Assembly (NCBI GenBank): GCA_017940415.1
Contig: JAGAYR010000018.1
Coordinates: 1-64,000 of the forward strand
Origin: Lachnospiraceae bacterium
GTDB taxonomy: Bacteria > Bacillota > Clostridia > Lachnospirales > Lachnospiraceae
DNA: 64,000 bases
Direction of reading: 5' to 3'
Part shown: positions 1,829 to 16,087 of the stretch, piece after piece
Numbering within the stretch: the stretch's first letter is position 1
Layout: every line of letters starts with the position of its first letter
The notes under the pieces: generated by a model
Databases searched by the model: none
What the model saw: the letters and a program-made list of their open reading frames with translations, nothing else
Told to the model about the DNA's origin: nothing
Program-made: the position numbers and the translations under genes

Positions 1829-2275
1829 TTAGGGAGTTGCAGGAGCGGTGGTCTGCCATGCACCGTTTACAAGGTAGTAAACATGTCCTTTAACGGTTAC
1901 ACTTCCGCCGGTGATGATTCCGCCGCTGTAATTGAATGAGAATGCGGTAACATCGGTCTTGCTTACACCGGAAAGGGTGTAAACCGTATCACCGTATGTG
2001 GCGGTGGTGTTAGCAAGCACGCCTTCCATTTCAGCAATCTTGGTAACTGCAGTCTTGGTATTACCGTTATCGGTCTTGTATCCGTCGCCATATGCCTGGT
2101 CGATGGTTGCCTGAGCTGCCACTCTTACGGTCTGAGCTGTAGAGAAATCCTTCTCCGATCTTGCTCTGTCAATGTATCCTAAAAGGGTAGGAACAAGGAT
2201 TGCAGCAAGAATTGCCAGGATAACAAGTACGACGATGAGTTCTACGAGTGTAAAGCCTTTGTTGTTCTTTTTCAT
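1829..2275 (-). CDS. Major type IV prepilin-like protein
   Basis: This is a 148-residue class III-type prepilin. A short basic leader (MKKNNKG) is followed by the FTLVELIVVLVIL hydrophobic helix. Prepilin peptidase would cut after Gly7, and Glu12 is the conserved Glu at mature position 5. The C-terminal part is small, Thr/Gly/Val-rich and lacks an obvious disulfide loop. It is the last gene of the pilus operon, with a good ribosome binding site (AAGGAGGG), its own candidate promoter and a strong terminator, which suits a highly expressed major subunit. Assignment as the major pilin is inferred from size, position and separate transcription signals. Confidence 0.88.
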   Translation of the reverse strand: MKKNNKGFTLVELIVVLVILAILAAILVPTLLGYIDRARSEKDFSTAQTVRVAAQATIDQAYGDGYKTDNGNTKTAVTKIAEMEGVLANTTATYGDTVYTLSGVSKTDVTAFSFNYSGGIITGGSVTVKGHVYYLVNGAWQTTAPATP

Positions 2276-2404: not shown

Positions 2405-4090
2405 TTATTCGTTATAGGCAATTTTTTCCAGTTCTTCCATTGTCGTAATGCCTTTTTCCACAAGCTCAAGTCCGGCCTGCTTGAGGGTTTTCATACCCTG
2501 CTGTTCGACGGCGTATTTCTTGATGGTATCCGCATCCGCGCCATCTGCAATAAGCTTTCTGATGCCTCTGTCCACGTACAGAACCTCATGGACGGCAATT
2601 CGTCCGCTGTAACCTGTTCCGTGGCATTTTGCGCATCCTACGGCGGATTTGGCGCCCGGCATGTCACGTCCGGCAAAGGCTCTCTGATATTCATCCAGTC
2701 CCGTTACTCTGCCGCAGGCGGGACAAACCTTTCTCATAAGTCTCTGAGCGATGGCACCTACCAGAGCCGATGAGAGGAGATAGGGCTCAGCTCCCATATC
2801 GATAAGTCTTATTATGGTAGAAACTGCATCATTGGTATGAAGGGTTGAAAGGACCAAATGACCTGTGATAGCGGCTCTGAGGGATATGCTTGCTGTCTCG
2901 GAGTCACGGGTTTCTCCTACCATTATGATATCGGGGTCCTGTCTTAAGAGTGCCCTGAGTCCGGAATCGAAGGTCAGTCCTGCGGTAGGATGTACCTGCA
3001 TCTGGTTGAGTCTGTTCAGGTTCTTCTCCACGGGATCCTCGATGGTTGATATATTGACCTGTCTGTCCGAGAGAGAATCCAGAGCCATGTAAAGGGTAGT
3101 GGTTTTACCTGATCCTGTAGGTCCGGTGATATAAATAAGACCGTTGGGAGATTTGAGCATTCTGGTGAACTTTTCGTAATTATCCGGTTCCATACCGAAG
3201 GTGGATGCATTGTCTATCCTGGAGTTTCCGGCAAGGATTCTCATTACCACCTTCTCGCCGAATACGGTGGGTATTACCGATACTCTGACGTTTACTATCT
3301 GATCTCTGATCTTGATTCTGAAGTGACCGTCCTGAGGCACTCTCTTTTCTGCGATATCAAGTTCGGACATGATCTTGATACGTGCTATGAGTGAACCCTG
3401 AACGTTTTTCTGAAGGGTCATGTAATCGATGAGTGCACCGTCCATACGGAGGCGGACATGGATCTCTTTTTCGAAGGGTTCGATATGAACGTCGGATGCG
3501 TTGTCCTGGTAAGCCTTGTCCAAAAGGGAGTTGACCAGGTTTATTATGGGAGCATCATCCGCACCTGCACCCGCATCGATGACCATCTCTCTGACTTCCG
3601 AAGCTACTGCGGATTCATTGGCGGACTGTGCCGCTCTCTTGGTCTGAACCTCGGCATAGTAGTAGTTGATGGCGTTTTCTATGGAGGCACGCTCAGCCAG
3701 AACGGTTTCAACGTTCATACCGCTGGTCTGACGTACGTCTTCGATATTTATAAAATCAAGAGGGTCGTTTACCGCGACTATAAGTGTTCCTTCACGGAAT
3801 GCCACGGGAAGCATGAGATAGCTGGATGCCATCTGGCTGGGAATGGTTTTGACCGCATTGCTGTCTACGGGGTATGTGGACAGATCGACCACTTCAAGTC
3901 CCATACGGCTTCCCAGGGTGTAGAGCATCTGTGTTTCGGTGACGTATCCTTTTTCAATCAGGATCTCACCGAGTCTTTTCTTGGATTCTTTCTGTTCGTG
4001 AAGTGCATCAGCAAGCTGGGCTTCGTCGATATAACCCGCTGCAACCATCAGATCGCCGATTCTGATTTTGGTAGAAGAGCCTGCTTCCAT
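2405..4090 (-). CDS. pilB: Type IV pilus assembly ATPase PilB/GspE with MshEN-type c-di-GMP motif
   Basis: This 561-residue cytoplasmic hexameric ATPase would power pilin polymerisation. Residues about 10-60 form a bipartite R[IL]GxxLxxxGxxxxxxLxxxLxxQ repeat separated by five residues, which is the MshEN/GspE N-terminal motif known to bind cyclic di-GMP. The catalytic half has Walker A GPTGSGKTTT (about 323-332), Walker B DPDIIMVGE and the His-box region. A CPAC...CAKC zinc motif follows (about 454-488). The length is usual for PilB/GspE. AAGGGAG precedes the ATG. It is transcribed after pilO and before the major pilin. No PilT retraction ATPase gene is present in the window. Confidence 0.93.
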   Translation of the reverse strand: MEAGSSTKIRIGDLMVAAGYIDEAQLADALHEQKESKKRLGEILIEKGYVTETQMLYTLGSRMGLEVVDLSTYPVDSNAVKTIPSQMASSYLMLPVAFREGTLIVAVNDPLDFINIEDVRQTSGMNVETVLAERASIENAINYYYAEVQTKRAAQSANESAVASEVREMVIDAGAGADDAPIINLVNSLLDKAYQDNASDVHIEPFEKEIHVRLRMDGALIDYMTLQKNVQGSLIARIKIMSELDIAEKRVPQDGHFRIKIRDQIVNVRVSVIPTVFGEKVVMRILAGNSRIDNASTFGMEPDNYEKFTRMLKSPNGLIYITGPTGSGKTTTLYMALDSLSDRQVNISTIEDPVEKNLNRLNQMQVHPTAGLTFDSGLRALLRQDPDIIMVGETRDSETASISLRAAITGHLVLSTLHTNDAVSTIIRLIDMGAEPYLLSSALVGAIAQRLMRKVCPACGRVTGLDEYQRAFAGRDMPGAKSAVGCAKCHGTGYSGRIAVHEVLYVDRGIRKLIADGADADTIKKYAVEQQGMKTLKQAGLELVEKGITTMEELEKIAYNE

Positions 4091-4136: not shown

Positions 4137-4970
4137 TTATTCTGTCTTATCTTTCATGTACAGGTTAACAGATATCTGTAACTGTCTCTGATCACTCTCA
4201 ACTACAAGTATCGATCCGTCTTCGAGAATAAAGGTGACGGGATCCATGGTGATCCATGTAAAACCGGTGATCCTTACTGAAGGATTGTGAGCCAGGTCAT
4301 CGATTATTGCCTGCTCGGCTTCAATATCACCTTCGACAACAAGTGTAAGCGCCACGCAGAGAAGACCTGAACTTTCGGTGGATGAAACATCTCTGAGTCC
4401 TGCGGAGTATTCTTCTACGGGATTTGAAATGATTCCCATATCCGATGATTCATATCCTGTCAGGAAACTGAGAACTGCTTCCTTATAATATGATCCGGAT
4501 TTTACTTTTTCCTCTTCCACGGCAGTTTCGGTGCTTTCGGTAACTGCTATAGTTTCAACGGTTTCGGATTCAGAAACGCGAAGATCGGAATATACATAAG
4601 GTTTTTCGTCTACGTATCCGTCGGGCATGCTGATGGTCAGATCCCTTGCAAGGAGTCCTCTTTTCAATACATAGGAGGTTACCAGTTTATCTATTTCGGA
4701 ACTGTCCATGTAGTCGTAGTAGATAGAAGTCGAATCCGCAAGGTCTTCGGCAAATCTGTCGGAAAGAGTTTCGGCAGTTGAAAGCCCGATTACTTTTGCT
4801 TCATTTTTTGCCTTAAGTGCCGATTCTATTCTGATCCTTTCCTGATCCTCCACGGTCTTCTTATAAAGCGGTCTTATAAGGCACCATCCGAAGATGAAAA
4901 TGATCACTATATAAACCAGCATGTTGAGAAGTTTTTTATCTCTGGCTGTGAGTGATGAACTGAAATTCAT
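4137..4970 (-). CDS. PilO/GspM-like pilus alignment protein
   Basis: This is a 277-residue bitopic membrane protein with a short cytoplasmic N-terminus, one TM helix (about 18-38) and a long coiled-coil-prone then alpha/beta extracytoplasmic part. That layout and its place directly after a PilM/PilN gene match PilO or GspM of the assembly platform. The sequence itself is too diverged for more than this family-level call. Its ATG follows the TAA of the preceding gene without any gap, so translation is probably coupled. Confidence 0.68.
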   Translation of the reverse strand: MNFSSSLTARDKKLLNMLVYIVIIFIFGWCLIRPLYKKTVEDQERIRIESALKAKNEAKVIGLSTAETLSDRFAEDLADSTSIYYDYMDSSEIDKLVTSYVLKRGLLARDLTISMPDGYVDEKPYVYSDLRVSESETVETIAVTESTETAVEEEKVKSGSYYKEAVLSFLTGYESSDMGIISNPVEEYSAGLRDVSSTESSGLLCVALTLVVEGDIEAEQAIIDDLAHNPSVRITGFTWITMDPVTFILEDGSILVVESDQRQLQISVNLYMKDKTE

Positions 4971-6452
4971 TTATTCTTCCTCCTTTGCAGAATCTCCGCT
5001 GAGGGTACAGATGACTTTGATGGACCAGGCACCGTCACTTTCATTCCATGAGTAGCCGGTATAGTCAACGTTTTCAAATATATCCATATCGAGCAGATCG
5101 GCTATGAACATATTGATATTCTCCACGGTAGGAGAGGAGGCGGTTGTTGCGAATACACCGTCTCCGGAATTGTAGGAACTGAATTCGACAGTAACATTGT
5201 GTTTGGCTGCTGCCTTTATTATCTGCTCGTTAACGGATGAATCTGGGATGGGATAAGTATCTATGTATTCCCTGAGCAGATCCACGCCTCCCTGCTGTTT
5301 TCCGTCTGCGGTGGAACGAACGATGAATGCATCATATTCCATGGCGCTTTGCATTACGTCGATACGCGAATTATAGTCTTCAAGATCACGCAGTCTCTTT
5401 GAGGTATTTATTCTTACCACGAGCATAAAGAGTGTGATAAGCAGTAATATCGCGGTCGTGATGATGACCGGTATGGATTTCCTGTATAGCTCAACCTTTC
5501 TTGTATATTTCTCATCGTTTTTCTTGATGGCCTTGAGAACGGGAAATCCTGTCTGAGGAACCACAAGACCCGCTATGGGATATATGAAGGCTGACAGGCG
5601 GTCATTCCATTTTTTGAAATGAATGTGTGAAGGAGCCGCAGTTCCGTGAACGGATATGTCGGGATCCGTATCTGCCAGGTATCCCTGAAGCATTGAAACA
5701 TCTTCGGGACTCATTCCTGCAAAGAACACATCGGTGATCGGGCTGGAGAGATGTTTGGATGATGCAAACTGCTTTATACCCGAAATGTTGCTTCTTATCT
5801 CTGCCGCAAATTCCTGTGTGCCGGGCTGCTGGAAGAGTCTTTTGGTGGAGTTGTAATAGTATTTGCCGTTTTCGTAAAGAATGGTAACAAGCATCTGTGC
5901 GTCACGGATCATATAGATGGCTGTAGCGCCTCTGATGCATGTTGCGAGTAGCTCCGTGGCCATGCTTACACCATCGTGTACGGAATTGAGAGTGATGCCT
6001 GCATCGGAGAAAATCTTTATGTACGTTTCTATGAAGGTGCGCTCTGCAACTTCGGTTACGATGTTCTGAGTTTTTTCCTTATTATTGGTTCCGATCAGAT
6101 ACCAGCCTTTTAAGGGCGAATCAAATCTGCCGAATTCATCCGGATTGGTCTGCTTTTCCAGATATTCGGTAACCTTTGTCTGCTTTGAGATAATAGGCAT
6201 GGTGATTCGGTTGGAGATGAGCTGGGGGCTGTTGATTATCAGATCAGCATTTCCGCTTATCTTGTTAACCGACCACAGCTCTTTGAGCTTGGCGGAAATA
6301 GCTTCGCCTCCTCCTTCGATGATGACACCGTTGAGGATGGCGTTTTCCGGCATGGGTGACTCAATGAGACGGTCTATGTATATAGACTTTCCTTTGCTCT
6401 TGCCGACAACGATCTGGATATTTTTGTTTGAAAAAAATACAGAAACGGACAT
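4971..6452 (-). CDS. PilM-PilN fusion protein (pilus assembly platform)
   Basis: The 493 residues form two modules. Residues 1 to about 310 resemble the actin-like cytoplasmic PilM/GspL fold, and one TM helix (about 327-347) leads into a coiled-coil and ferredoxin-like periplasm-side domain of the PilN type. In many bacteria PilM and PilN are separate and linked by the short PilN N-terminal peptide; here they form one chain, as in GspL. It lies between PilC and PilO, as expected. The GGGAGAG ribosome binding site supports the ATG at 6452. The family call depends on architecture and context more than on strict motifs. Confidence 0.72.
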   Translation of the reverse strand: MSVSVFFSNKNIQIVVGKSKGKSIYIDRLIESPMPENAILNGVIIEGGGEAISAKLKELWSVNKISGNADLIINSPQLISNRITMPIISKQTKVTEYLEKQTNPDEFGRFDSPLKGWYLIGTNNKEKTQNIVTEVAERTFIETYIKIFSDAGITLNSVHDGVSMATELLATCIRGATAIYMIRDAQMLVTILYENGKYYYNSTKRLFQQPGTQEFAAEIRSNISGIKQFASSKHLSSPITDVFFAGMSPEDVSMLQGYLADTDPDISVHGTAAPSHIHFKKWNDRLSAFIYPIAGLVVPQTGFPVLKAIKKNDEKYTRKVELYRKSIPVIITTAILLLITLFMLVVRINTSKRLRDLEDYNSRIDVMQSAMEYDAFIVRSTADGKQQGGVDLLREYIDTYPIPDSSVNEQIIKAAAKHNVTVEFSSYNSGDGVFATTASSPTVENINMFIADLLDMDIFENVDYTGYSWNESDGAWSIKVICTLSGDSAKEEE

Positions 6453-6473: not shown

Positions 6474-7670
6474 TTATTGACCTGCACCGATTGTTGAATA
6501 GGACTGGTAGATCGGAAGGATTACACCGATCATGATGAAACCTACGATCAAGGCCATTATTACTATCATGACAGGTTCGATGTATTTGACCATTCGTGTC
6601 AATGCCTGTTCGGATGCAAAGTCGAGATTGTCTGCGACACTTACGAGCATTGAATCCAGCGAACCTGTTTCTTCACCGACTCTTACGACGGATGAAAGTT
6701 TTGATACGAAACCGTCTACTTCATCCAGTGCATCCGACAGGAGACCTCCTGCCTGTACGGCTTTGATAACATCAGTGAATTGTTTTTCTATGTATGTATT
6801 ACCGATAGTCTGACGTGCTATTGCAAGGCACTGGTCTATGGGAATACCTGCCGAGTACAGTGAACTCATTGTTCTTGCAAATCTTGCGGAGTAGATTACC
6901 TTCTGGAGTTTTCCCAGAGGACCTCTTACTTTAAATCTGTCGATCACCAGTCTTACCGAAGGTATTCTTGATACTATTCCACCGAATATCCATATAAGTA
7001 CCGCAAAGACCAGAAGCAGGTACCAGTAGTGACTTACCAGATCACTTACTCCCAGCAGGAATCTTGTGGGAGCGGGAAGGACGGGCATTTCACTGAAGAG
7101 CTCTTCGAACTGCGGCATGATGAATCCGAATATGACTCCGACTACGCCCACGATAAGTCCCGCAAGGATCTTCGGGTAAGTGAGAGCGTTCTTGGCTTCG
7201 GATTCCAGTTTGTTTTCTTTTTGATATTGATCTGCCAGCCTGAGTGCGGTGGTATCAAGGTTTCCGGAGCTTTCCGCCGCTCTGAACATGTAAACGAGAA
7301 GCGGAGGAAATGCGGGATAAAGTTCTTCCATCGCCGTGGACAATGCGATACCCTGTACTACTCTGTCCCTGAGTCTCATATAGAGTTCCTTCTCATAGGG
7401 CGTTATGGATTCGTCCGATCCCTGGATTTCAAGAGCTCTCAGGATTGATATACCGGATTTGATGAGTTCTCCCATCTGTCTGCAGAAATCCGAAAGCTGA
7501 GATTTTTTCAGCGGCTTCAGAGCAATCTGCTTTGCTATTTCTTCGTAGTAAAGAAGCGTCTGATCTTTGGCACTGACAAGCTTTCTGATCTCTCTTTCGT
7601 CGGATGCTTTTATCCGGCCTTTGACCTGTTTTCCGTTTTTTGTTTGTGCTGTGTATCTGTAGTCAGGCAT
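6474..7670 (-). CDS. pilC: Inner-membrane platform protein PilC/GspF
   Basis: This 398-residue protein has the duplicated GspF/PilC domain (about 60-185 and 260-385) with hydrophobic helices after the first repeat and at the C-terminus. It starts with the usual MPDYRYTAQTKNGKQVKG segment. Characteristic stretches are FCRQMGELIKSGISILRAL in the first repeat and FARTMSSLYSAGIPIDQCL in the second. It anchors the ATPase and rotates or levers pilins into the fibre. The length is standard. It lies just downstream of an uncharacterised bitopic protein gene (8-nt gap) and upstream of pilMN (21-nt gap). Confidence 0.94.
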   Translation of the reverse strand: MPDYRYTAQTKNGKQVKGRIKASDEREIRKLVSAKDQTLLYYEEIAKQIALKPLKKSQLSDFCRQMGELIKSGISILRALEIQGSDESITPYEKELYMRLRDRVVQGIALSTAMEELYPAFPPLLVYMFRAAESSGNLDTTALRLADQYQKENKLESEAKNALTYPKILAGLIVGVVGVIFGFIMPQFEELFSEMPVLPAPTRFLLGVSDLVSHYWYLLLVFAVLIWIFGGIVSRIPSVRLVIDRFKVRGPLGKLQKVIYSARFARTMSSLYSAGIPIDQCLAIARQTIGNTYIEKQFTDVIKAVQAGGLLSDALDEVDGFVSKLSSVVRVGEETGSLDSMLVSVADNLDFASEQALTRMVKYIEPVMIVIMALIVGFIMIGVILPIYQSYSTIGAGQ

Positions 7671-7678
7671 AGTCTTGT

Positions 7679-8161
7679 TTATTCTCCTGCTGAGTATTCC
7701 AATACTTTAAAGTCGTAATATACGGTCCAGTCACCGTTCATTCCGTAAGTTCCGTCACCGCTTCCGGTTTCCTTGTATTCAACAAGATATTTTCCTTCCC
7801 TGTAGGAAAAAGATAACGGAATATCATTTTCATAATCCCATCCGGTCAGGGTTATCTCTCCGTCTATAGGTATCATGGTTTTCATCCTGGAGAGAGCATC
7901 GGGTGCAAGTCCGTTCTCGTAGGACGGATCATACATAGACTCATCACCCTTGTAGAATTCCAGCGATACCAGTTTCATCGCAACCCTGATGTCTTTGGCG
8001 TGAGCCAGAGCGGTTCTTGCACCTGAACTGATTCCGGATATCAGGACGATCACGCCGATGATCAAAGCAACTGCAATGATGGTCCGCGGGTACTTTCCGA
8101 ATCTGTCGGTACTTTTCTTTACGTAGAATTCAGTTTTGGAATTGCCTGTTAAATCATCCAT
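7679..8161 (-). CDS. Uncharacterised bitopic membrane protein in the pilus operon
   Basis: This 160-residue protein is not one I recognise. A hydrophilic N-terminus of about 25 residues precedes one TM helix (about 28-47). About 110 residues outside the membrane follow, rich in Asp, Tyr and Gly. There is no prepilin cleavage motif. An AGGTGA ribosome binding site precedes the ATG. Its position, 18 nt after the giant prepilin gene and 8 nt before pilC, suggests a role in assembly or in anchoring the giant prepilin. That role is only an inference from context. Confidence 0.6.
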   Translation of the reverse strand: MDDLTGNSKTEFYVKKSTDRFGKYPRTIIAVALIIGVIVLISGISSGARTALAHAKDIRVAMKLVSLEFYKGDESMYDPSYENGLAPDALSRMKTMIPIDGEITLTGWDYENDIPLSFSYREGKYLVEYKETGSGDGTYGMNGDWTVYYDFKVLEYSAGE

Positions 8162-8179: not shown

Positions 8180-11100
8180 TCAAGGTACGTTATATGTTCC
8201 TGTATTTCCGTTTACCGAATAATTAAATATTCCTGTCTTGGAAGGATCCGTTGAACCGAAGAGAAGATCTTCCGCATCGGCTCCTGCAGGATAGTTCGCG
8301 AGGGTTATATGATATGTCATCGATGTCTTGGTCTGGAATGTTCCGCCATTTTCACCGATTAGAGCACCCCACATATTCGAAGAGGATATATCGATACTTC
8401 CTCCGTTAGGTATATAAACATTGGTGCTGTCATTTTCGGTTCTTCCGAATGTGCTGGAGTTGTATCCTATGATTCCTCCGGCAGCGGTACCACCTGAAAC
8501 TTTAATACTTGAGTCGTTATTGGAGGTGAGGGATAAGAAAGGAGTGTTTGTATAATTACCTTCTATCTTACCTATAAGTCCTCCGGCATATGTTGCAGCC
8601 TTTACGGAAACGGTTGATGTTCCTTCGCACTTGATTGCGAGTGTTGTACCCTTTCCCATATTTCCGTCGGATAAGTGTCCGATATTTCCGCCTGCGGCAC
8701 TGCCTGTTGATTCGATACTGAGTACGGAGTTTTTAACTTCGATGGTTGCGCCGGAATAGTAGCAATTAGCCTCGGCACTTCCTATAGCACCTCCGGTATA
8801 TCCTGAACCTGTTATCGTAAGCTTGCAGCTGTCCAGAAGAATCTTGGGATTCTTATGAAGATTTGCGCCGTTTGTGATTCTGGAACATGCAAGTCCTGCG
8901 ATTCCTCCGACATAATTATTTCCTTTGATGGTGCATTCGGAAACCGGTGCAAGGGTTATTGCCGCTGCATTTTGGAATGTGTTGGAATATCCGATGATGC
9001 CACCTACATTATTGGTACCGGTTATGGTGATCTTTTTTCCGTTGAAAGTATATTTGGAGGCTTCAGAGGATGTGCCGTCATATACTTCTCCGAATATTCC
9101 GCCGGTGTTTGTGGTTCCGGTTATGGAAGATTCTTCTCCGGTGTATATCAGTTGGGAATTTCCCTCTATATAGGATTTGTTCTCAAAACATCCGATGATA
9201 CCGCCGGTATGATCCGCACCGGTTATGGATGATGCTTTTGCTTCATATATAAGTACGGCATAACCTTTTATGTGAATATTTGTATTGGCATATCCGATGA
9301 TGCCGCCTGTATAATCCGTTCCGGTAATGGATGTTCCTTCTCCGCCGAATGTCAGCTTGGAAGAGCTTTCTATGTTACAGCCGCTTATTGCTCCGAAGAT
9401 GCCGCCGGTGTATTTCTTGCCGGATATGGATCCGCCCTCGGATGCAAAAGTGATCACCGAACTGTTCCTGAAGTGTGAGCTTGTAACGGAACCTGCTATA
9501 CCGCCTGCATACTCGGGAGTTTCATCCGCAGAAGTGCATATGATATGAGCGCTTTCACCTGTGTAGCTTATTTCACCATAGATATTTCCTACGCTTTCAA
9601 TCTTACCTATGCATCCGCCTATATTTCCTTTTCCGGATATAAGTGAATTAACTCCGGTGTACAGGACATGAGCATTTGCACCGACTTCTCCGCCGCTTTG
9701 TCTTCCTACACATCCGCCCACATATTCGTATCCGTTAATGGCAAGGTTTGTAAGATCTGATTTGACGGTTCCGTAGATTTTGGTTCCCGAGCTGTTTCCT
9801 ATACATCCGCCCATGCGAGATGAAAGCAGCTTGTTCTCGGCTGACAGATATGTTCCTTCTATTGCAAGGATGTTTCCGGTCAGCGATATCTCGCCGGATT
9901 CATTTACGGTAGCCGTTCCTTCGAGATTACCGATAACTCCACCGATGTTGTTTCCGCCTCTTACATATCCGCCGTTTGAAGTCATTGTAATGGAAGAGTT
10001 GATCTTTACGGCATTAGTGCTGCTTCCGATACATCCGCCGACATTTCCACCGTCAGCCTGAATGATGGGAGCTGTGCTGTTTAAATATACGTATGAACTT
10101 ACCGAAACTGCCGAATTAAAATCTTTGTTTGTATTGAGAAGACCTATCGCACCGCCCGCGTTAATGTTTCTCGCATATACGTGAGAATAAGGATTCAATG
10201 TGACGATCATATCCGAAGAGGTGGAGTGGTTGGTATTGTCCAGTCTTCCGATCATTCCGCCCGCATTTTCGTAACTGTCAACATTAACGATAACGGTATT
10301 TCCGGATGCCTGAGAGGGAAGGTTAAATGCGGTTTTTATTTCCGAACTGCCGACATCAAGGTGTCCGATGAGTCCGCCTGCGTTTACGGTTTCGGAATCG
10401 TAAACGGTTCCCAAAGCCGTTGTTTTCGAAGCACTGATGTTAAGGGTTACGGTGCCTGCATCTCCCTGCACAAGAGTTAATGAAGAAGATGCTGAATTGG
10501 AGCCTGCCTTAAATAATCCGCACACACCGCCTGCGTTTGCCATAGCGTTTACGGTAACAGTACCGGAAACGATGGAACGAAGATTCATGTATGAGCAGAT
10601 ATATTGAGCATTACCGATTACACCTCCCGCATTTGACAGATCGGAGACTATTCCGGATCCGGACTGAAGCTTAGCTGTAATGGTAGTTGGTGTTCCCGAG
10701 GGATCGCTGCTGAGCGAACCTGTATGTGTGCCTATTGCGCCGCCGGCATTATTTCCGTAAGAGCGGATCGTTCCACTTTCGAAACAATAAATTGAACTTG
10801 CCCTGGGCATATAGCGGATCAAGCCTGCCACGCCTCCCACACCGGAATTGTTGCATTTGGAATCCGTAATGGGATAAGAGTTGGTGTTGCCGAGTATTGT
10901 TCCATAGTTGAAAGAAGCGATACGGAAAACAGGAAGGACATTCTGCCCGCCTGTGATCGCACCGATGGCACCGCCTATACCGCCTGTGTTTTTATCACCT
11001 GAGGTATTTAACTGAGGACCTGCATGAGTGCAGTCGCCGTATATTTCGCCCTTATTGATAACAGATATTATTACGTTTCCGTTAACGCCGTCTAAATTGT

Positions 11101-14100
11101 TTATCTTACCGACGGCGCCACCGGTTGTATGAGCATAACCGTAATAGGTTTTGTCTCCGGTACCGTCATTGTATTTATAAGAACCTATATGAGAAGTGCT
11201 TTCGTTAACTACCAGAATGCTTATCTGTGATACCTGACTGTCTGTGATGATACCTACGGCTCCGCCCAGGTTCTTGATATAACTCTTTCCGTCTGAGGAC
11301 GTGATAACACCCTCGTTTCTGACACGTATACTGATCGTGCCTCCACCGTACGTATTGATACGTCCGACTGCGCCGCCTATTCCGCATTCACGTTTAAGCT
11401 CCTTGGATTTCTCATCCGTCTTGAGCAGGAGATAGGAATGTGAATCGAGAGTTACATCTATTGCATATTCATCAGGTTCTATGGGGGATGCCAATCCCGG
11501 ATCTTCGGTTACCGTGAGGATTCCGTCTGTCGTACACGAATATGACAAAGTGGCAACCTTTGAACTCTGACAGAAACTTGAGTTGTTATTTAAGCTTCCG
11601 ACGGCACCGCCCAAAGAGTCGGATGTTGCATACAGTACGGAAGTGATGCCGGTTCCGAAATCTATGAGGGCATTATCTTTATCCTCGGTATTGTTGACGC
11701 GGATAAACGCATCGACATTACTTCTGGTGAAACCTAAGACAGCACTTACGTTTAACCAGTTTGCGGAAACAAATCGTCCGGTGGCTTCAAGGTGTCCATA
11801 GAGATAACCGGGGGCGTTTGCTACGGAGGTGGCTCCGTTGTCACCTACTATTCCTCCGCAGGCAGAGAGTTCATAGAGGTGCCATTTTCCCGAACCGTCC
11901 TTGTACAAAGATGTAACGATACAATTACTGAATTTGATCGTATTGCTGTCTTTATCAGTTATGGTGGAAGAACCGATGTTTCCGATATTGGTACCCACGA
12001 GTCCGCCCATTGGTGAGCTTCCCTTGAATATAAGCGCCTGAGTGGAATCGATAGTGGTGTTTACAAGGGATGTAACTACATCTCTTATCTCATCCGTATC
12101 ATCGGGTGAACCGTCCGGTATATCGTTAAGGAGCAGAGTCATTCCGTTTGCTCGGATGTTGATAATATTGCCGCGGTTAACATTAATGAGACCGTATCCG
12201 TCCAGAGATGATGCGTTCTGGTTCCTGTCAAAGAAGGATTCCATTCTCATCTGAAGATTATTGATGGAAGCTGTCTTTCCCGTAAGGGTATCGGTTTCTG
12301 CCTGAAGAGTTGTATGTGTATTAAGTTTGGGGATTGAGGGGAATGATACGACATTTAGATCGTCGCCGTATTCTTTGTGAGTTATCGTAGTGGGACCGGG
12401 TGCGGGAACAGGAGAATGAGGGACTATGCCCACACCGCTCACTGCGGAATATACCACAACATCACTGGAGTAAACGTTTCTTCCCGCAACAGTCTTTATT
12501 GTGTACCAGTTCAGGTCTCTTACGATTGAGTAGCAAACATCCACACCCGTATTGTTTTCCAGCATACGGATGTTATACAGATGTCTGTATGAAGTTATGA
12601 CAGCACTGTCGGTTCCACCTATGGTGGGCTTGGTGCCAACACTTCCTGCTCCGAGATCTCCGAAGTAAGAATTTACTACGGCATAACTTTTACCGCTTTC
12701 CCTTAATGCCGCATGATCCATATATCTGTATGTTCCTTCGGAACTGTAATACACGGGATCGTCGAGTGCTCTGCTTGCATAAACGGTATCGGTTGTAGCA
12801 AGGCCTGTTCCTTTGTATGCTGCGTAGGCATCACCGAAGTCATCATTTTCCGCATACATGGTAGCGTAGAAGTTGGTCGGGAATCCGTTTGCAGTGAGCT
12901 TGGTGATGTTGGGAACTGTCAGTCTGTGGAAACTGTAGTTGAGAGTTTTCAGGGTTTCCGCAGCTGTACCGGAAGCAGGATTCATTGCATTATCGATGAC
13001 GTTACGTGACATCATCGCATCGAGAGTAAGAGAGTAGTATACTCCCTCGGAAATTGTGGAACCGTACACATCATATATCTCGTAGGATATGGTGATGGGG
13101 AAATTGAAGTAGTTATCGTTCTGGAAAAGCTTGTTGCCTTCACTGTTATAGTCGAAGGCATAATGAGAAGCCGAAACCCTGTGCACGTATACTTTGGCAA
13201 CTGCCTGAATGGATGCCTTGTAAACGGTTATGGGTATTCCTCTGATATCACTGACCGTCTCTTTGGTATAGAGTACGGTGTAATCTCTTGTTCCCGTGTG
13301 TCCTATAAAAGAAAGATTGGTGGTGTGATCATTGAGCAAAGTATCGAAATTATCTTTGCTGAATTTCAGTGCCTCATAAAAACCTTTCTGATAAAGGCCT
13401 TGCTGAGGATAACCTTCGAAGATTGCATTTTCGTTAAGTACAAGATCACAGAACTTTTCATCGGAGTCTGCATTGTACAAAGAGAAAGTATAGTGAACAT
13501 GGTCGGGTACTCCGGTAACGGGATTGTCATCGGATTTGACGGACCATTTGATATCGAGAGTTTCTCCGTTCCTGAGAGTGAAATCATTTACTTCGACTTC
13601 TGATGGAACGAAAACGGAATCTATTGAGGACAGACTTACATCTCCGCAATAGTATCCGATAAGACTGGTGTTTTTACGATAATCACCGTCTCTGTAAGGA
13701 ACCGTAAGATCTGTATGATTGTTGTATGAACGAAGATCCCATGCGGTTCTCTTGCTGTCATAGAAAACAGAGCAGACGCTTGCGCTGAGGTGAAGATTAC
13801 CCGATGCATCCAGTGCCTTCTCTACATCGAATTCGATGGTGATGATTCCCGACATGACATCGGTTGCTTTGAAATCCTGATATATCAGTCCCTTAATAAA
13901 ATTGTTCTGAGCACTGTCCGTACCGGGAGTATATGTGACGGCATAACGCATATGCACGGACTGTCCGGGAAGAGAATTGGGAAGTTTATCCGGGAATAAT
14001 CTGAATGAACCGGGATTGAATTTTGTATCAAACAGTTCGCGGTTATTATCCTGAGAAGGATCTTCTGTTCCTATACCCGCTCCGTCCTCATCGTTCATTC

Positions 14101-14359
14101 CCTTGGGACCGATGAGATCTCTGCACCAGTCGTCCAGGCTTCCGTTTTCCGACATGTGATTTAAGGATGCCTGAGCGGACTGATAGATCGTTTCTGCGGT
14201 CCTTTGATTATTGTTGTACCTTGTCATGTCGATGTAGGCCATGATGCTGTAGACCGCAGCAGAAGCAAGTATTCCCAGTATTACCAGGACTACTATCATT
14301 TCAACCAGTGTAAATCCGGCATTGATATTCTTTTTTGAATCATGTTCTTTGAATATCAT
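8180..14359 (-). CDS. Giant prepilin-like adhesin with about 30 GLUG-type repeats
   Basis: The product has 2059 residues. The N-terminus is a true prepilin signal: a basic leader, cleavage after Gly15, mature FTLVEMIVVLVILGILASA and Glu20 at mature position 5. Residues about 60-760 are non-repetitive and beta-rich. From about 780 to about 2010 a Gly-rich unit of 30-45 residues, marked by GGxIG or GGIxG, recurs about 30 times. This resembles GLUG-type beta-helix repeats of surface adhesins. I chose the ATG at 14359 because it overlaps the upstream stop as ATGA; the longer reading to 14440 runs inside the preceding gene. Ordinary minor pilins have 150-300 residues. The likely role is a fibre-tip adhesin replacing a PilY1-type protein (inference). 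Confidence 0.85.
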   Translation of the reverse strand: MIFKEHDSKKNINAGFTLVEMIVVLVILGILASAAVYSIMAYIDMTRYNNNQRTAETIYQSAQASLNHMSENGSLDDWCRDLIGPKGMNDEDGAGIGTEDPSQDNNRELFDTKFNPGSFRLFPDKLPNSLPGQSVHMRYAVTYTPGTDSAQNNFIKGLIYQDFKATDVMSGIITIEFDVEKALDASGNLHLSASVCSVFYDSKRTAWDLRSYNNHTDLTVPYRDGDYRKNTSLIGYYCGDVSLSSIDSVFVPSEVEVNDFTLRNGETLDIKWSVKSDDNPVTGVPDHVHYTFSLYNADSDEKFCDLVLNENAIFEGYPQQGLYQKGFYEALKFSKDNFDTLLNDHTTNLSFIGHTGTRDYTVLYTKETVSDIRGIPITVYKASIQAVAKVYVHRVSASHYAFDYNSEGNKLFQNDNYFNFPITISYEIYDVYGSTISEGVYYSLTLDAMMSRNVIDNAMNPASGTAAETLKTLNYSFHRLTVPNITKLTANGFPTNFYATMYAENDDFGDAYAAYKGTGLATTDTVYASRALDDPVYYSSEGTYRYMDHAALRESGKSYAVVNSYFGDLGAGSVGTKPTIGGTDSAVITSYRHLYNIRMLENNTGVDVCYSIVRDLNWYTIKTVAGRNVYSSDVVVYSAVSGVGIVPHSPVPAPGPTTITHKEYGDDLNVVSFPSIPKLNTHTTLQAETDTLTGKTASINNLQMRMESFFDRNQNASSLDGYGLINVNRGNIINIRANGMTLLLNDIPDGSPDDTDEIRDVVTSLVNTTIDSTQALIFKGSSPMGGLVGTNIGNIGSSTITDKDSNTIKFSNCIVTSLYKDGSGKWHLYELSACGGIVGDNGATSVANAPGYLYGHLEATGRFVSANWLNVSAVLGFTRSNVDAFIRVNNTEDKDNALIDFGTGITSVLYATSDSLGGAVGSLNNNSSFCQSSKVATLSYSCTTDGILTVTEDPGLASPIEPDEYAIDVTLDSHSYLLLKTDEKSKELKRECGIGGAVGRINTYGGGTISIRVRNEGVITSSDGKSYIKNLGGAVGIITDSQVSQISILVVNESTSHIGSYKYNDGTGDKTYYGYAHTTGGAVGKINNLDGVNGNVIISVINKGEIYGDCTHAGPQLNTSGDKNTGGIGGAIGAITGGQNVLPVFRIASFNYGTILGNTNSYPITDSKCNNSGVGGVAGLIRYMPRASSIYCFESGTIRSYGNNAGGAIGTHTGSLSSDPSGTPTTITAKLQSGSGIVSDLSNAGGVIGNAQYICSYMNLRSIVSGTVTVNAMANAGGVCGLFKAGSNSASSSLTLVQGDAGTVTLNISASKTTALGTVYDSETVNAGGLIGHLDVGSSEIKTAFNLPSQASGNTVIVNVDSYENAGGMIGRLDNTNHSTSSDMIVTLNPYSHVYARNINAGGAIGLLNTNKDFNSAVSVSSYVYLNSTAPIIQADGGNVGGCIGSSTNAVKINSSITMTSNGGYVRGGNNIGGVIGNLEGTATVNESGEISLTGNILAIEGTYLSAENKLLSSRMGGCIGNSSGTKIYGTVKSDLTNLAINGYEYVGGCVGRQSGGEVGANAHVLYTGVNSLISGKGNIGGCIGKIESVGNIYGEISYTGESAHIICTSADETPEYAGGIAGSVTSSHFRNSSVITFASEGGSISGKKYTGGIFGAISGCNIESSSKLTFGGEGTSITGTDYTGGIIGYANTNIHIKGYAVLIYEAKASSITGADHTGGIIGCFENKSYIEGNSQLIYTGEESSITGTTNTGGIFGEVYDGTSSEASKYTFNGKKITITGTNNVGGIIGYSNTFQNAAAITLAPVSECTIKGNNYVGGIAGLACSRITNGANLHKNPKILLDSCKLTITGSGYTGGAIGSAEANCYYSGATIEVKNSVLSIESTGSAAGGNIGHLSDGNMGKGTTLAIKCEGTSTVSVKAATYAGGLIGKIEGNYTNTPFLSLTSNNDSSIKVSGGTAAGGIIGYNSSTFGRTENDSTNVYIPNGGSIDISSSNMWGALIGENGGTFQTKTSMTYHITLANYPAGADAEDLLFGSTDPSKTGIFNYSVNGNTGTYNVP

Positions 14360-15264
14360 TCGGTTGTGTCCTCTGCAAAAACAAGGATTGCACTTCTGGT
14401 ATACACGGGGCTTTCGGAAGCCTGCTCCGCATAATCGCAATCGTATACCTTGACGGTTACTTTAACGCTGAGTGGTCTCTGAAGATATAGTTCATCCGAT
14501 GAAGTCTGCAGGTCCGAGAATTCAAGGCTTACGGTATATCCGTTATAAGCCGTGGATGAAAAAGGAGTTGTGTAATCGTATCTGACTGCAGGATAGATGC
14601 AGCCTATGGTTTTGGATTCACCGTTATAGCTGCAGGGCTTGTTTTCTTTTCCGCACTGATAATATCCGAAGTGCACATAACCCTGGAGTGTTTCGGGAGT
14701 AGCCGAAGTGCTGTCTGCGGTAGGATAGAATCTGTAAACAGCTCTGGAGGATATTCCGCCGATTCCGTCACTGGGGTTGGGAAATACGTAGGAGGTTCCT
14801 TCCAGAATATTGGCATCCCTTACACTTTCAAAATTGGAATAGGAGATTGGCATGCAGGAATACACAGCCTGACAAAAGCCGGGATTTTTTCTGATTATGA
14901 GGACATTGCCTACGGAGTCGAATCTTGCGGTTCTGGGATCTGCCTGTTCGAATGTGCTGAGGAGTAACCCGTCACCGGTTGAAGGGCTGTAGGTACTTAA
15001 TCCCAGATTAACGATCCTGACTGATGCAAAATCATCTATGTATGCATCCGCACATTCTTCCCTCAGGGAATCAATGACCATGTCGGCAACAACCTGGGCT
15101 CTGCTCATGGATTGAAGCTGCAGATACAGTCTTGTGGAAGCAGGAAGCAGTGCTACGATCGCAGTGGCAAAGATCGCGGTAAGTGTCATGGAAACCAGAA
15201 GTTCCACAAGGGTGAAACCTGAGTCTTTTAGGGTATTTGATTTTTCAAAAAGTTTTATTTTCAT
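14356..15264 (-). CDS. Minor prepilin, GspJ/PilW-like
   Basis: This is a 302-residue prepilin with the leader ending KDSG, cleavage after Gly16, mature FTLVELLVSMTLTAIFATA and the conserved Glu21. Its size and sequence style fit the GspJ/PilW class of minor pilins that prime fibre assembly. The extracellular part has several Cys residues. The ATG at 15264 overlaps the upstream TGA as ATGA; a TTG at 15276 in the same frame is an alternative. The stop overlaps the start of the giant prepilin gene in the same way, so four prepilin-like genes are translationally coupled or nearly so. Confidence 0.83.
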   Translation of the reverse strand: MKIKLFEKSNTLKDSGFTLVELLVSMTLTAIFATAIVALLPASTRLYLQLQSMSRAQVVADMVIDSLREECADAYIDDFASVRIVNLGLSTYSPSTGDGLLLSTFEQADPRTARFDSVGNVLIIRKNPGFCQAVYSCMPISYSNFESVRDANILEGTSYVFPNPSDGIGGISSRAVYRFYPTADSTSATPETLQGYVHFGYYQCGKENKPCSYNGESKTIGCIYPAVRYDYTTPFSSTAYNGYTVSLEFSDLQTSSDELYLQRPLSVKVTVKVYDCDYAEQASESPVYTRSAILVFAEDTTE

Positions 15265-15611
15265 CTGAATACCCAATAGACCGAGTCACCGGATCTGTAT
15301 TGATATGCGGTGAGGTCGTGACTTGTATCGGTTCCCGGTATTGTGATCGTAACGGGAGCTTCAGGTGTGCGCATGGTGGTGCTGGGTGAGTTTGTCTTCT
15401 TCTCTTTGCTGAGTTCTTCACGGAAATTTTCATACTCCTCGTCGGCCGTACGCCTGATGTCGATGGAGTTGTTAATGGTAGCACTTGCGAAATTTATGGC
15501 ACCTGTGAACATGGCAACCACGATCATAAGAACGATGAATGCAACCATAACTTCCACAAGTGTCTCACCGCGGTTATCATTTATGAACTTGTCATAGGTT
15601 TTAACTGTCAT
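15261..15611 (-). CDS. Minor prepilin, GspI/PilV-like
   Basis: This is a 116-residue prepilin with leader MTVKTYDKFINDNRG, cleavage after Gly15, mature ETLVEVMVAFIVLMIVVAMF and the conserved Glu20. The first mature residue is Glu rather than Phe or Met, which is tolerated in minor pilins. The TLVEVMVAF pattern is typical of GspI/PilV proteins. It is the second gene of the operon, 8 nt after the first. The subclass assignment is inferred from order (K-, I-, J- and H-like) and hydrophobic helix sequence. Confidence 0.8.
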   Translation of the reverse strand: MTVKTYDKFINDNRGETLVEVMVAFIVLMIVVAMFTGAINFASATINNSIDIRRTADEEYENFREELSKEKKTNSPSTTMRTPEAPVTITIPGTDTSHDLTAYQYRSGDSVYWVFR

Positions 15612-15619
15612 GTCCTGAC

Positions 15620-16087
15620 CTACCTTTTGCTGTAACCGGATGCGGCACTTCCTGTGTATTCAGTGGTTTTGATATATGTTTCCCCCGCCGCGGTAGCTGT
15701 GACTGTTAATACATAGTATGTACCGGCGGTTCCTGTTTTTCTGGAGATGACTGCGTGAATGGAAGAATCGGGAATAGAACCGAAACCTGAAGTGAGAGGT
15801 ACAATGTCTCCTTCGGTTGCGGGATCCGCTATAAAAGAATCCAGATCAATCTGTGATTTGTGAAGGTTATCGGATGTTTCGTTTAAGATCAGTTCCTCGA
15901 TACGTGTGGAGAGACTGGTTGCCAGTTCGTAAGCCTGATTATATTTTTTGACGGAGTCCGCATCGGAAAGAAGCATCGAACCGATGGCAACTAAAGTAAG
16001 CGCCAGCGAGATTACGATGACACTGTAGATTGAAACTAAGACCAGACTCGCCCCTCTGTTAGATTTTAAGAAACTTGTTTTCCCCAT
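15620..16087 (-). CDS. Minor prepilin, GspK/PilX-like, lacking Glu5
   Basis: This is a 155-residue protein and first gene of the operon. The leader MGKTSFLKSNRG is followed by a mature ASLVLVSIYSVIVISLALTLV helix, with cleavage after Gly12. Position 5 of the mature protein is Leu, not Glu. Loss of Glu5 is a known trait of GspK, which caps the fibre tip and needs no partner above it. The remaining part is Asp/Ser-rich. The ribosome binding site is weak, so the ATG at 16087 is the least certain start in the operon. Confidence 0.72.
   Translation of the reverse strand: MGKTSFLKSNRGASLVLVSIYSVIVISLALTLVAIGSMLLSDADSVKKYNQAYELATSLSTRIEELILNETSDNLHKSQIDLDSFIADPATEGDIVPLTSGFGSIPDSSIHAVISRKTGTAGTYYVLTVTATAAGETYIKTTEYTGSAASGYSKR

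Follow-up and report, generated by a model that had tools for sequence, protein, structure and literature searches.

Modular pilins, in which a non-pilus domain is joined to a pilin module, are already a known concept, and they are a known route for pili to gain adhesins. In the monoderm pilus of S. sanguinis, PilB (vWA) and PilC (lectin) each have a small pilin module, a short link, and a large C-terminal module, and these modules are placed below the apical pilin, like wings (PMC8179133, PMC9934059, PMC10628169). The order from the apex is given as PilA, PilC, PilB, with the two modular pilins below the apical one (PMC9934059, PMC10628169). ComZ from Thermus thermophilus is a DNA-binding pilin that is argued to be located at the tip; its pilin part is GspK-like, and its beta-solenoid, of about 380 residues, lies within the pilin frame (PMC6561018). 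Diderm type IVa pili have PilC/PilY1, a large proposed tip effector by the H-I-J-K pilins (PMC9934059, PMC10191384), and the Pih pilus of Pelobacter carbinolicus, also a diderm, has three "large minor pilins," which are said to be far bigger than their counterparts in other pili (PMC3543383). Among pilins with multiple extra domains, the extreme case in a 2021 InterPro survey has 860 residues and 12 repeats, and its authors point out that modules without database signatures are missed (PMC8179133).

We analyzed a window of 64,000 nucleotides from a Lachnospiraceae bacterium (contig JAGAYR010000018.1 of assembly GCA_017940415.1). It encodes a giant prepilin of 2059 amino acids at 8180..14359 (-), with its ATG at 14359 and its stop at 8180; we place this protein in the H slot of a minor pilin set (see below). 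This is about ten times the normal size of a subunit. (The list of open reading frames also has an upstream TTG start, which would give 2086 amino acids, but it is the ATG that shares bases with the stop of the preceding gene, as described below.) The N-terminus is MIFKEHDSKKNINAG followed by FTLVEMIVVL, and the signal would be cut after Gly15, in the context KNINAG/FTLVE, so that Glu20 is at +5 of the mature protein. Pfam's N_methyl model matches (E = 1.3e-7, 31.4 bits, cut-off 21.2), which identifies a class III prepilin signal. Thus, an earlier reading of the sequence alone (the first-pass annotation), which described a 2059-residue prepilin with a complete signal, is borne out. Pfam lists no other family in the giant at E ≤ 0.1, and Pfam and NCBIfam together gave no matches beyond the pilin N-terminus. 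The giant in the window has no LPxTG-like or RGD motif.

The giant lies in an operon for a type IV pilus, all on the reverse strand. The genes are transcribed in the order K-like, I-like, J-like, giant, 160-aa protein, PilC, PilM/N-like, PilO-like, PilB, major pilin candidate, and a permease, which we take to be of the UraA type. The K-like prepilin (15620..16087 (-), 155 aa, GASLVL) has no Pfam match. The I-like prepilin (15261..15611 (-), 116 aa, GETLVE) matches N_methyl with 26.9 bits. The J-like prepilin (14356..15276 (-), 306 aa) matches N_methyl with 29.9 bits and is also assigned by gene order; its stop and the giant's ATG share 4 bases. By coordinates, the same overlap is present in 9 of the 11 orthologous loci L038-L048 (all but L046 and L048). 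The K-like prepilin has Leu at +5, and none of the 24 members of its family that we examined (this one counted) has Glu there. The tip-capping K of other systems also lacks Glu5 (PMC9934059).

Downstream of the giant is a 160-aa protein with one hydrophobic stretch and no family match (7679..8161 (-)), which is PilP-like by position only. It is followed by the platform protein PilC/GspF (6474..7670 (-), 398 aa, T2SSF E = 2.6e-53), a PilM/PilN-like protein (4971..6452 (-), 493 aa), and a PilO/GspM-like protein (4137..4970 (-), 277 aa). The last two are assigned by position and by weak matches (TIGR01175 for PilM, 13.9 bits with a cut-off of 133; T2SSM, E = 0.059, below the cut-off). Then come the assembly ATPase PilB (2405..4090 (-), 561 aa), with T2SSE at E = 2.9e-126 and TIGR02538 at 571 bits, below its cut-off of 675.65, and the major pilin candidate (1829..2275 (-), 148 aa, N_methyl 41.1 bits). 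PilT is encoded elsewhere in the genome, and it scored above the cut-off in all four genomes tested. The genome also encodes a PF01478 peptidase; PilD with PF06750 was found in G012 and G028 and was not found in G000 or G034.

The giant appears to be built from several modules. The signal and pilin module take up about residues 1-205 (13745..14359 (-)). They are followed by a low-confidence linker (about 204-267, pLDDT < 50), a beta-rich middle domain (about 259-505), a second low-confidence region (about 527-578), a beta-helix cap (about 585-760), and a long predicted beta-helix (785-2059; 8183..12007 (-)). In the AlphaFold2 model, which has moderate confidence for the pilin module, there is a helix at 18-71 and strands at 134-143, 172-183, and 188-201, that is, the long N-terminal helix and small alpha/beta domain of a type IV prepilin. 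The first-pass annotation had counted about 30 GGxIG repeats. We found 32 instances of GGx[IVLAFMC]G in the giant, all within 785-1965; in 2000 shuffles of residues 751-2059, the mean was 1.6 and the maximum was 6. The repeat region is predicted to fold as a beta-helix, probably with one coil per GGxIG repeat.

Comparisons to known folds were less direct. Foldseek against the PDB, with both models, gave nothing at E ≤ 0.001 (the best were 0.038 and 1.0e-3, and the latter is the Fap2 adhesin 9qe7), so we base the beta-helix class on the predicted strands and a second structural look, which was a re-ranking of Foldseek's own hits only. The first four rows of one second-look list are of the IgA1-protease type, and the lists also include GH28 polygalacturonases, PL6 lyases, GH110 enzymes, and phage tailspikes. 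The predicted structure fits a beta-helix of the M26/GLUG type. However, the giant has just 11-12% identity to the beta-helices of IgA1 protease (7uvk) and of Bacteroides BACOVA_03286 (3n6z), it has no match to a protease family, and it is attached to a pilin. A sequence search of solved structures with the giant found pilin N-termini only, and the same search with the beta-helix region found no match. The repeats had been called GLUG-like, which stands for the predicted fold class and not for Pfam membership: the best match of GLUG (PF07581) in the giant has 11.2 bits (E = 2.57), below the cut-off of 20.5, and for the repeat regions of the giant and 11 homologues, no GLUG match is listed at E ≤ 10. 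One relative, L095, does pass the GLUG cut-off (32.8 bits).

The first-pass annotation had placed the giant where H pilins sit, with K-, I-, and J-like prepilins encoded just before it, and our results agree. The giant completes an H-I-J-K set: the order is K-I-J-giant in the window and H-K-I-J in other operons. To compare pilin modules, we built an HMM of residues 46-215 of the window protein from the core giants, leaving out the beginning of the helix, and ran it on 295 open reading frames. The first 18 (E ≤ 0.04) were all H-slot or giant pilins, and 14 of these had E < 0.002; the next was a PilB at E = 0.12, and no major, K, I, or J pilin scored better than E = 1.2. The HMM recognised short H pilins from four other loci (198 aa, L108, E = 6.9e-7; 213 aa, L107, 1.6e-5; 189 aa, L113, 1.3e-4; 191 aa, L114, 9e-5). 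It did not recognise the giants L103 (E = 0.46) and L105 (1.7, in the wrong region). If the HMM is started at residue 60, the 198- and 213-aa pilins reach just E = 0.005 and 0.05, which puts much of their signal in residues 46-60. The short H pilins stop at about residue 208, where the graft begins. The giant is therefore built like a modular pilin in the sense of Raynaud et al. 2021, with a non-pilus part, including the predicted beta-helix, grafted on from about 208. The claim that a beta-helix is covalently attached to a minor pilin is thus supported, by the structural model for the beta-helix and by the HMM for the pilin module.

The gspH equivalog TIGR01708 gives the giant 25.9 bits, and its cut-off is 80; therefore, we call the giant an H-slot pilin, by position and shared module, and not a GspH. 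In solved pilins, matches to the giant's sequence profile are almost confined to the N-terminal helix. One set of second-look rows shows no GspH or FimU chain, but it covers only 255-566 and 584-1150, with residues 1-254 barely sampled.

When we searched 59 genomes with the giant (its own included), 22 had a match, several by the pilin N-terminus only. Orthologous PilC (at least 78% identity) is present in 11 of 31 congeneric genomes, including its own, and all 11 match the giant, although in G010 the match is a fragment at a contig end. The remaining congeneric genomes have only PilC of at most 49% identity (12 genomes) or no PilC (8 genomes). Scanning named genomes with the full alignment yielded 35 loci, some of which come from the same genomes as the G-numbered set. 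Their titles are Lachnospiraceae, Clostridiales, Clostridia, Oscillospiraceae, Ruminococcaceae, or Saccharofermentans. Twelve record titles mention a rumen, omasum, or jejunum sample, and nine further titles have RUG or RUI labels, presumably from rumen collections. P6A3, AC2028, NK4A179, XPB1003, AB2028, and KHP2 do not have a MAG mark. In 27 of the 35 loci, the giant is complete (1933-3779 aa), and in 6 it runs off the contig end. The other two are L070 (G007), a 378-aa stub with the remaining operon absent, and L077, whose 5' end is cut and whose frame is interrupted (an open part of 821 aa and then one of 1062 aa). Thirty-four of the 35 loci have the prepilin signal, the exception being the 5'-cut L077, which is also the only locus where the repeats lie in a separate (second) open reading frame. 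With a predicted beta-helix fold for the repeats and a signal retained in these 34 loci, we did not encounter the results that the first-pass annotation had named as contradicting it. In the more distant loci L076, L079, L080, L086, and L088, the K-I-J block is on the giant's other side or is turned, but it is still in the locus. We rejected one candidate short pilin, L052 (G008), listed at 321 aa, because it is cut by a run of N.

Searching more widely, a profile of the N-terminus matched 73 of 392 genomes of the order, many through nothing more than the universal pilin helix. The match ran through the pilin module (to profile position 152 or beyond) in 19 genomes: 16 were in open frames of at least 1000 aa (one of these, in G135, has two stops inside the match), two were in ordinary pilins (L107 and L108), and one was in a 561-aa frame. 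We examined 17 stretches from this search. In L092-L100, the H-slot protein is a giant (1171-3722 aa) and is followed by K-, I-, or J-like pilins, of which some are only weak matches. In L107 and L108, the H position of H-K-I-J is filled by proteins of just 213 and 198 aa. L101-L105 have giants of 1625-4035 aa, and a clear H-K-I-J order was not seen there. A class-wide search matched 145 of 391 genomes, many via the helix only, and it added a 191-aa H pilin before K-I-J (L114) and, at the end of a contig, one of 189 aa that is followed by K-I (L113). It also added 483- and 501-aa versions (L115 and L116) beside a P160-PilC-PilM/N-PilO-PilB set like that of the window. These two match the pilin module (E = 9e-59 and 1.4e-62) and the middle domain (3.5e-20 and 4e-23), and their comparisons to the beta-helix cap gave no match (E = 0.12 and 0.2). 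In other giants, the cap region (575-760) matches in L092 (E = 1.2e-14), L093 (3e-11), and L095 (8.3e-9), and is weak or absent in the rest. L076 and L090 have added Listeria-Bacteroides repeats. The largest giants have 3779 aa among the complete relatives and 4708 aa in an open frame. Given the sizes and the module matches, these proteins share one common design, from the pilin only up to pilin, middle domain, cap, and helix.

Sequence comparisons indicate that purifying selection acts along the full length of the giant. Relative to G027, the whole gene has a dN/dS of 0.12; the pilin module is lower (0.05-0.06) and the distal helix is higher (0.17-0.18). Relative to G012, the distal half is higher again, with dS near or at saturation. 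Orthologues share an identity of 0.76 with the giant at the N-terminus, and this declines to about 0.4 in the distal part. At 1576-1800, about 30% of aligned positions are gaps, and whole repeats have been gained or lost. The distal coils evolve the fastest and vary in number, as expected for a binding surface.

The giant is probably an H-slot minor pilin of a monoderm type IV pilus, with a C-terminal graft that forms an adhesive side arm below the tip. After cleavage at Gly15, its N-terminal helix would be packed in the fibre next to the minor pilins I, J, and K; K, which lacks Glu5, would be at the very top. Beyond the pilin module would come the flexible linker, then the beta-rich domain, and then the beta-helix, with about 30 coils; at one 0.48-nm coil per repeat, its length would be roughly 15 nm. 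The beta-helix would project sideways just below the tip as the adhesive arm, and PilT could let the cell pull on a target that the arm holds. The ligand might be plant fibre, mucus, or another microbe. In known complexes, the H pilin is positioned beneath K, which makes a subapical side arm likelier than an apical cap. Of the suggestion of a fibre-tip adhesin that is covalently part of a minor pilin, we keep the covalent graft in the H slot and move it from the apex to just below. By analogy, the H subunit would hold a place like that of the S. sanguinis modular pilins. Adhesion to cellulose has been linked to type IV pili in Ruminococcus albus, and such a link is proposed for R. flavefaciens (PMC3672088), which makes fibre a reasonable candidate ligand.

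Alternatively, the giant might be inserted along the shaft and coat the fibre. Glu5 is kept, so the N-terminus does not forbid this, and Raynaud et al. 2021 allow a shaft position if the linker is flexible (here, its pLDDT is below 50). However, the giant is in the H slot, adjoining K, I, and J, and the bulky modules of S. sanguinis were judged to be incompatible with the filament body (PMC10628169), so we consider insertion along the shaft unlikely. The operon could also encode a secretion pseudopilus, with the giant being exported and then retained at the surface or released. T2SS models for the platform and the ATPase do score well, but the existence of PilT and a separate major pilin candidate, and the prepilin signal in all 34 related loci that keep the 5' end, make this improbable.

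The beta-helix might instead be a pilus-borne enzyme, acting on pectin or other polysaccharides, for example. This would fit the GH28, PL6, and GH110 enzymes and the tailspikes in the second-look lists, as well as the 12 of 35 related records with rumen, omasum, or jejunum in their titles. But the listed enzymes share a generic right-handed beta-helix, and IgA1-protease-type structures head one list. Also, Pfam lists no glycoside hydrolase or lyase in the giant or in the repeat regions of 11 homologues. HExxH is absent from the giant and from the 17 other proteins that we read (three of them short), so the giant is not an M26-type protease. An enzyme is improbable as well, to about the same degree as a pseudopilus. 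Finally, the interrupted frame of L077 and the stub in G007 might suggest an artefact of assembly or annotation, or a decaying gene. Conservation refutes this: there are 27 complete giants in 35 loci, some in records without a MAG mark, and dN/dS is 0.12 across the length. The side-arm reading is the one that we retain.

Among the known systems, PilC/PilY1 is not itself a pilin, whereas the giant is, and the giant has no match to the PilY1 beta-propeller (PF05567) at E ≤ 0.1. The first-pass annotation had the giant replacing PilY1. This implies a loss, but monoderms are described as having no PilY1 (PMC9934059). (Our own search for PilY1 found it in 0 of 31 genomes, but the control was silent too, so this is uninformative about absence.) S. 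sanguinis PilB is 50.5 kDa with a vWA module, while the giant's graft consists of a middle domain and then a predicted beta-helix more than 1200 residues long. In contrast to ComZ, the graft follows the pilin module, is in the H slot, and is far longer. The Pih pilins are similar by description only, and they are from a diderm. In the literature that we searched, with subscription journals mostly outside reach, no giant H pilin is described. As far as that literature goes, the size, the location in the H slot, the C-terminal beta-helix graft, the conservation in gut Clostridia, and the size series are new.

On balance, we lean towards a broader view, in which the H pilin of gut Clostridia became a giant arm through an ancient graft of a GLUG/M26-type beta-helix. 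The proteins would range from 1171 to over 4700 residues. Whole coils would have been gained or lost, some members would have acquired Listeria-Bacteroides repeats, and others would lack the helix. The arm would be a covalent counterpart of PilY1, and no type IV pilin of greater size would be known. Such giants would have been missed because no domain model sees the graft. The family is two to four times the size of the 860-residue case in the survey, and it raises a physical question, the passage of so large a rod through the cell wall on a growing pilus. The natural series (pilin only; with the middle domain; with the beta-helix; with Listeria-Bacteroides repeats) lets the function of each module be compared. 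Since type IV pili are tied to cellulose adhesion (PMC3672088), the giant may be an attachment organ of fibre-dwelling gut bacteria.

Some loci from relatives have shortened, split or possibly duplicated genes. In genome G007 (L070 / L054), the gene for the giant pilin is reduced to a 378-aa stub. The gene for the UraA-type permease lies directly after the stub, and the remaining genes of the operon are missing. The genes may have been lost naturally, or the arrangement may come from a join made during assembly. In one relative (L038), the PilMN gene is present as two ORFs, and in another (L047), the gene for the assembly ATPase PilB is present as two ORFs; either decay or sequencing error could account for these splits. 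Genome G027, a MAG, contains a second K-I-J-giant fragment (contig 30; L056 / L072), which is about 53% identical and represents either a second locus or contamination.

Some giants have additional domains near the C-terminus: Listeria-Bacteroides repeats (Flg_new) form six stretches in the 3779-aa giant of L090 and one stretch in the 3634-aa giant of L076. A remote giant (L051:1988-9343; 2451 aa) has 46 GGxxG motifs and a sub-threshold match to the carbohydrate-binding module CBM_5_12 (21.8 bits, versus a cut-off of 26.2). Elsewhere in the window's own genome, a 1019-residue open frame (G000:C20:94136-94600) has four weak matches to GLUG (at best 18.2 bits, versus a cut-off of 20.5). A tRNA scan of the whole window (64,000 nt, including 26072-64000) found no tRNA.

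The giants of relatives can also be larger. In G017, a second type of pilus has a giant pilin of at least 4708 aa (L049:2-14125), whose frame is open at the contig end and which adjoins the major pilin of that pilus. In G032, the giant has 2835 aa, and the I-like and J-like pilins alongside it are both large (579 and 629 aa; L050:11665-15302), so this bacterium may carry grafts on several minor pilins.
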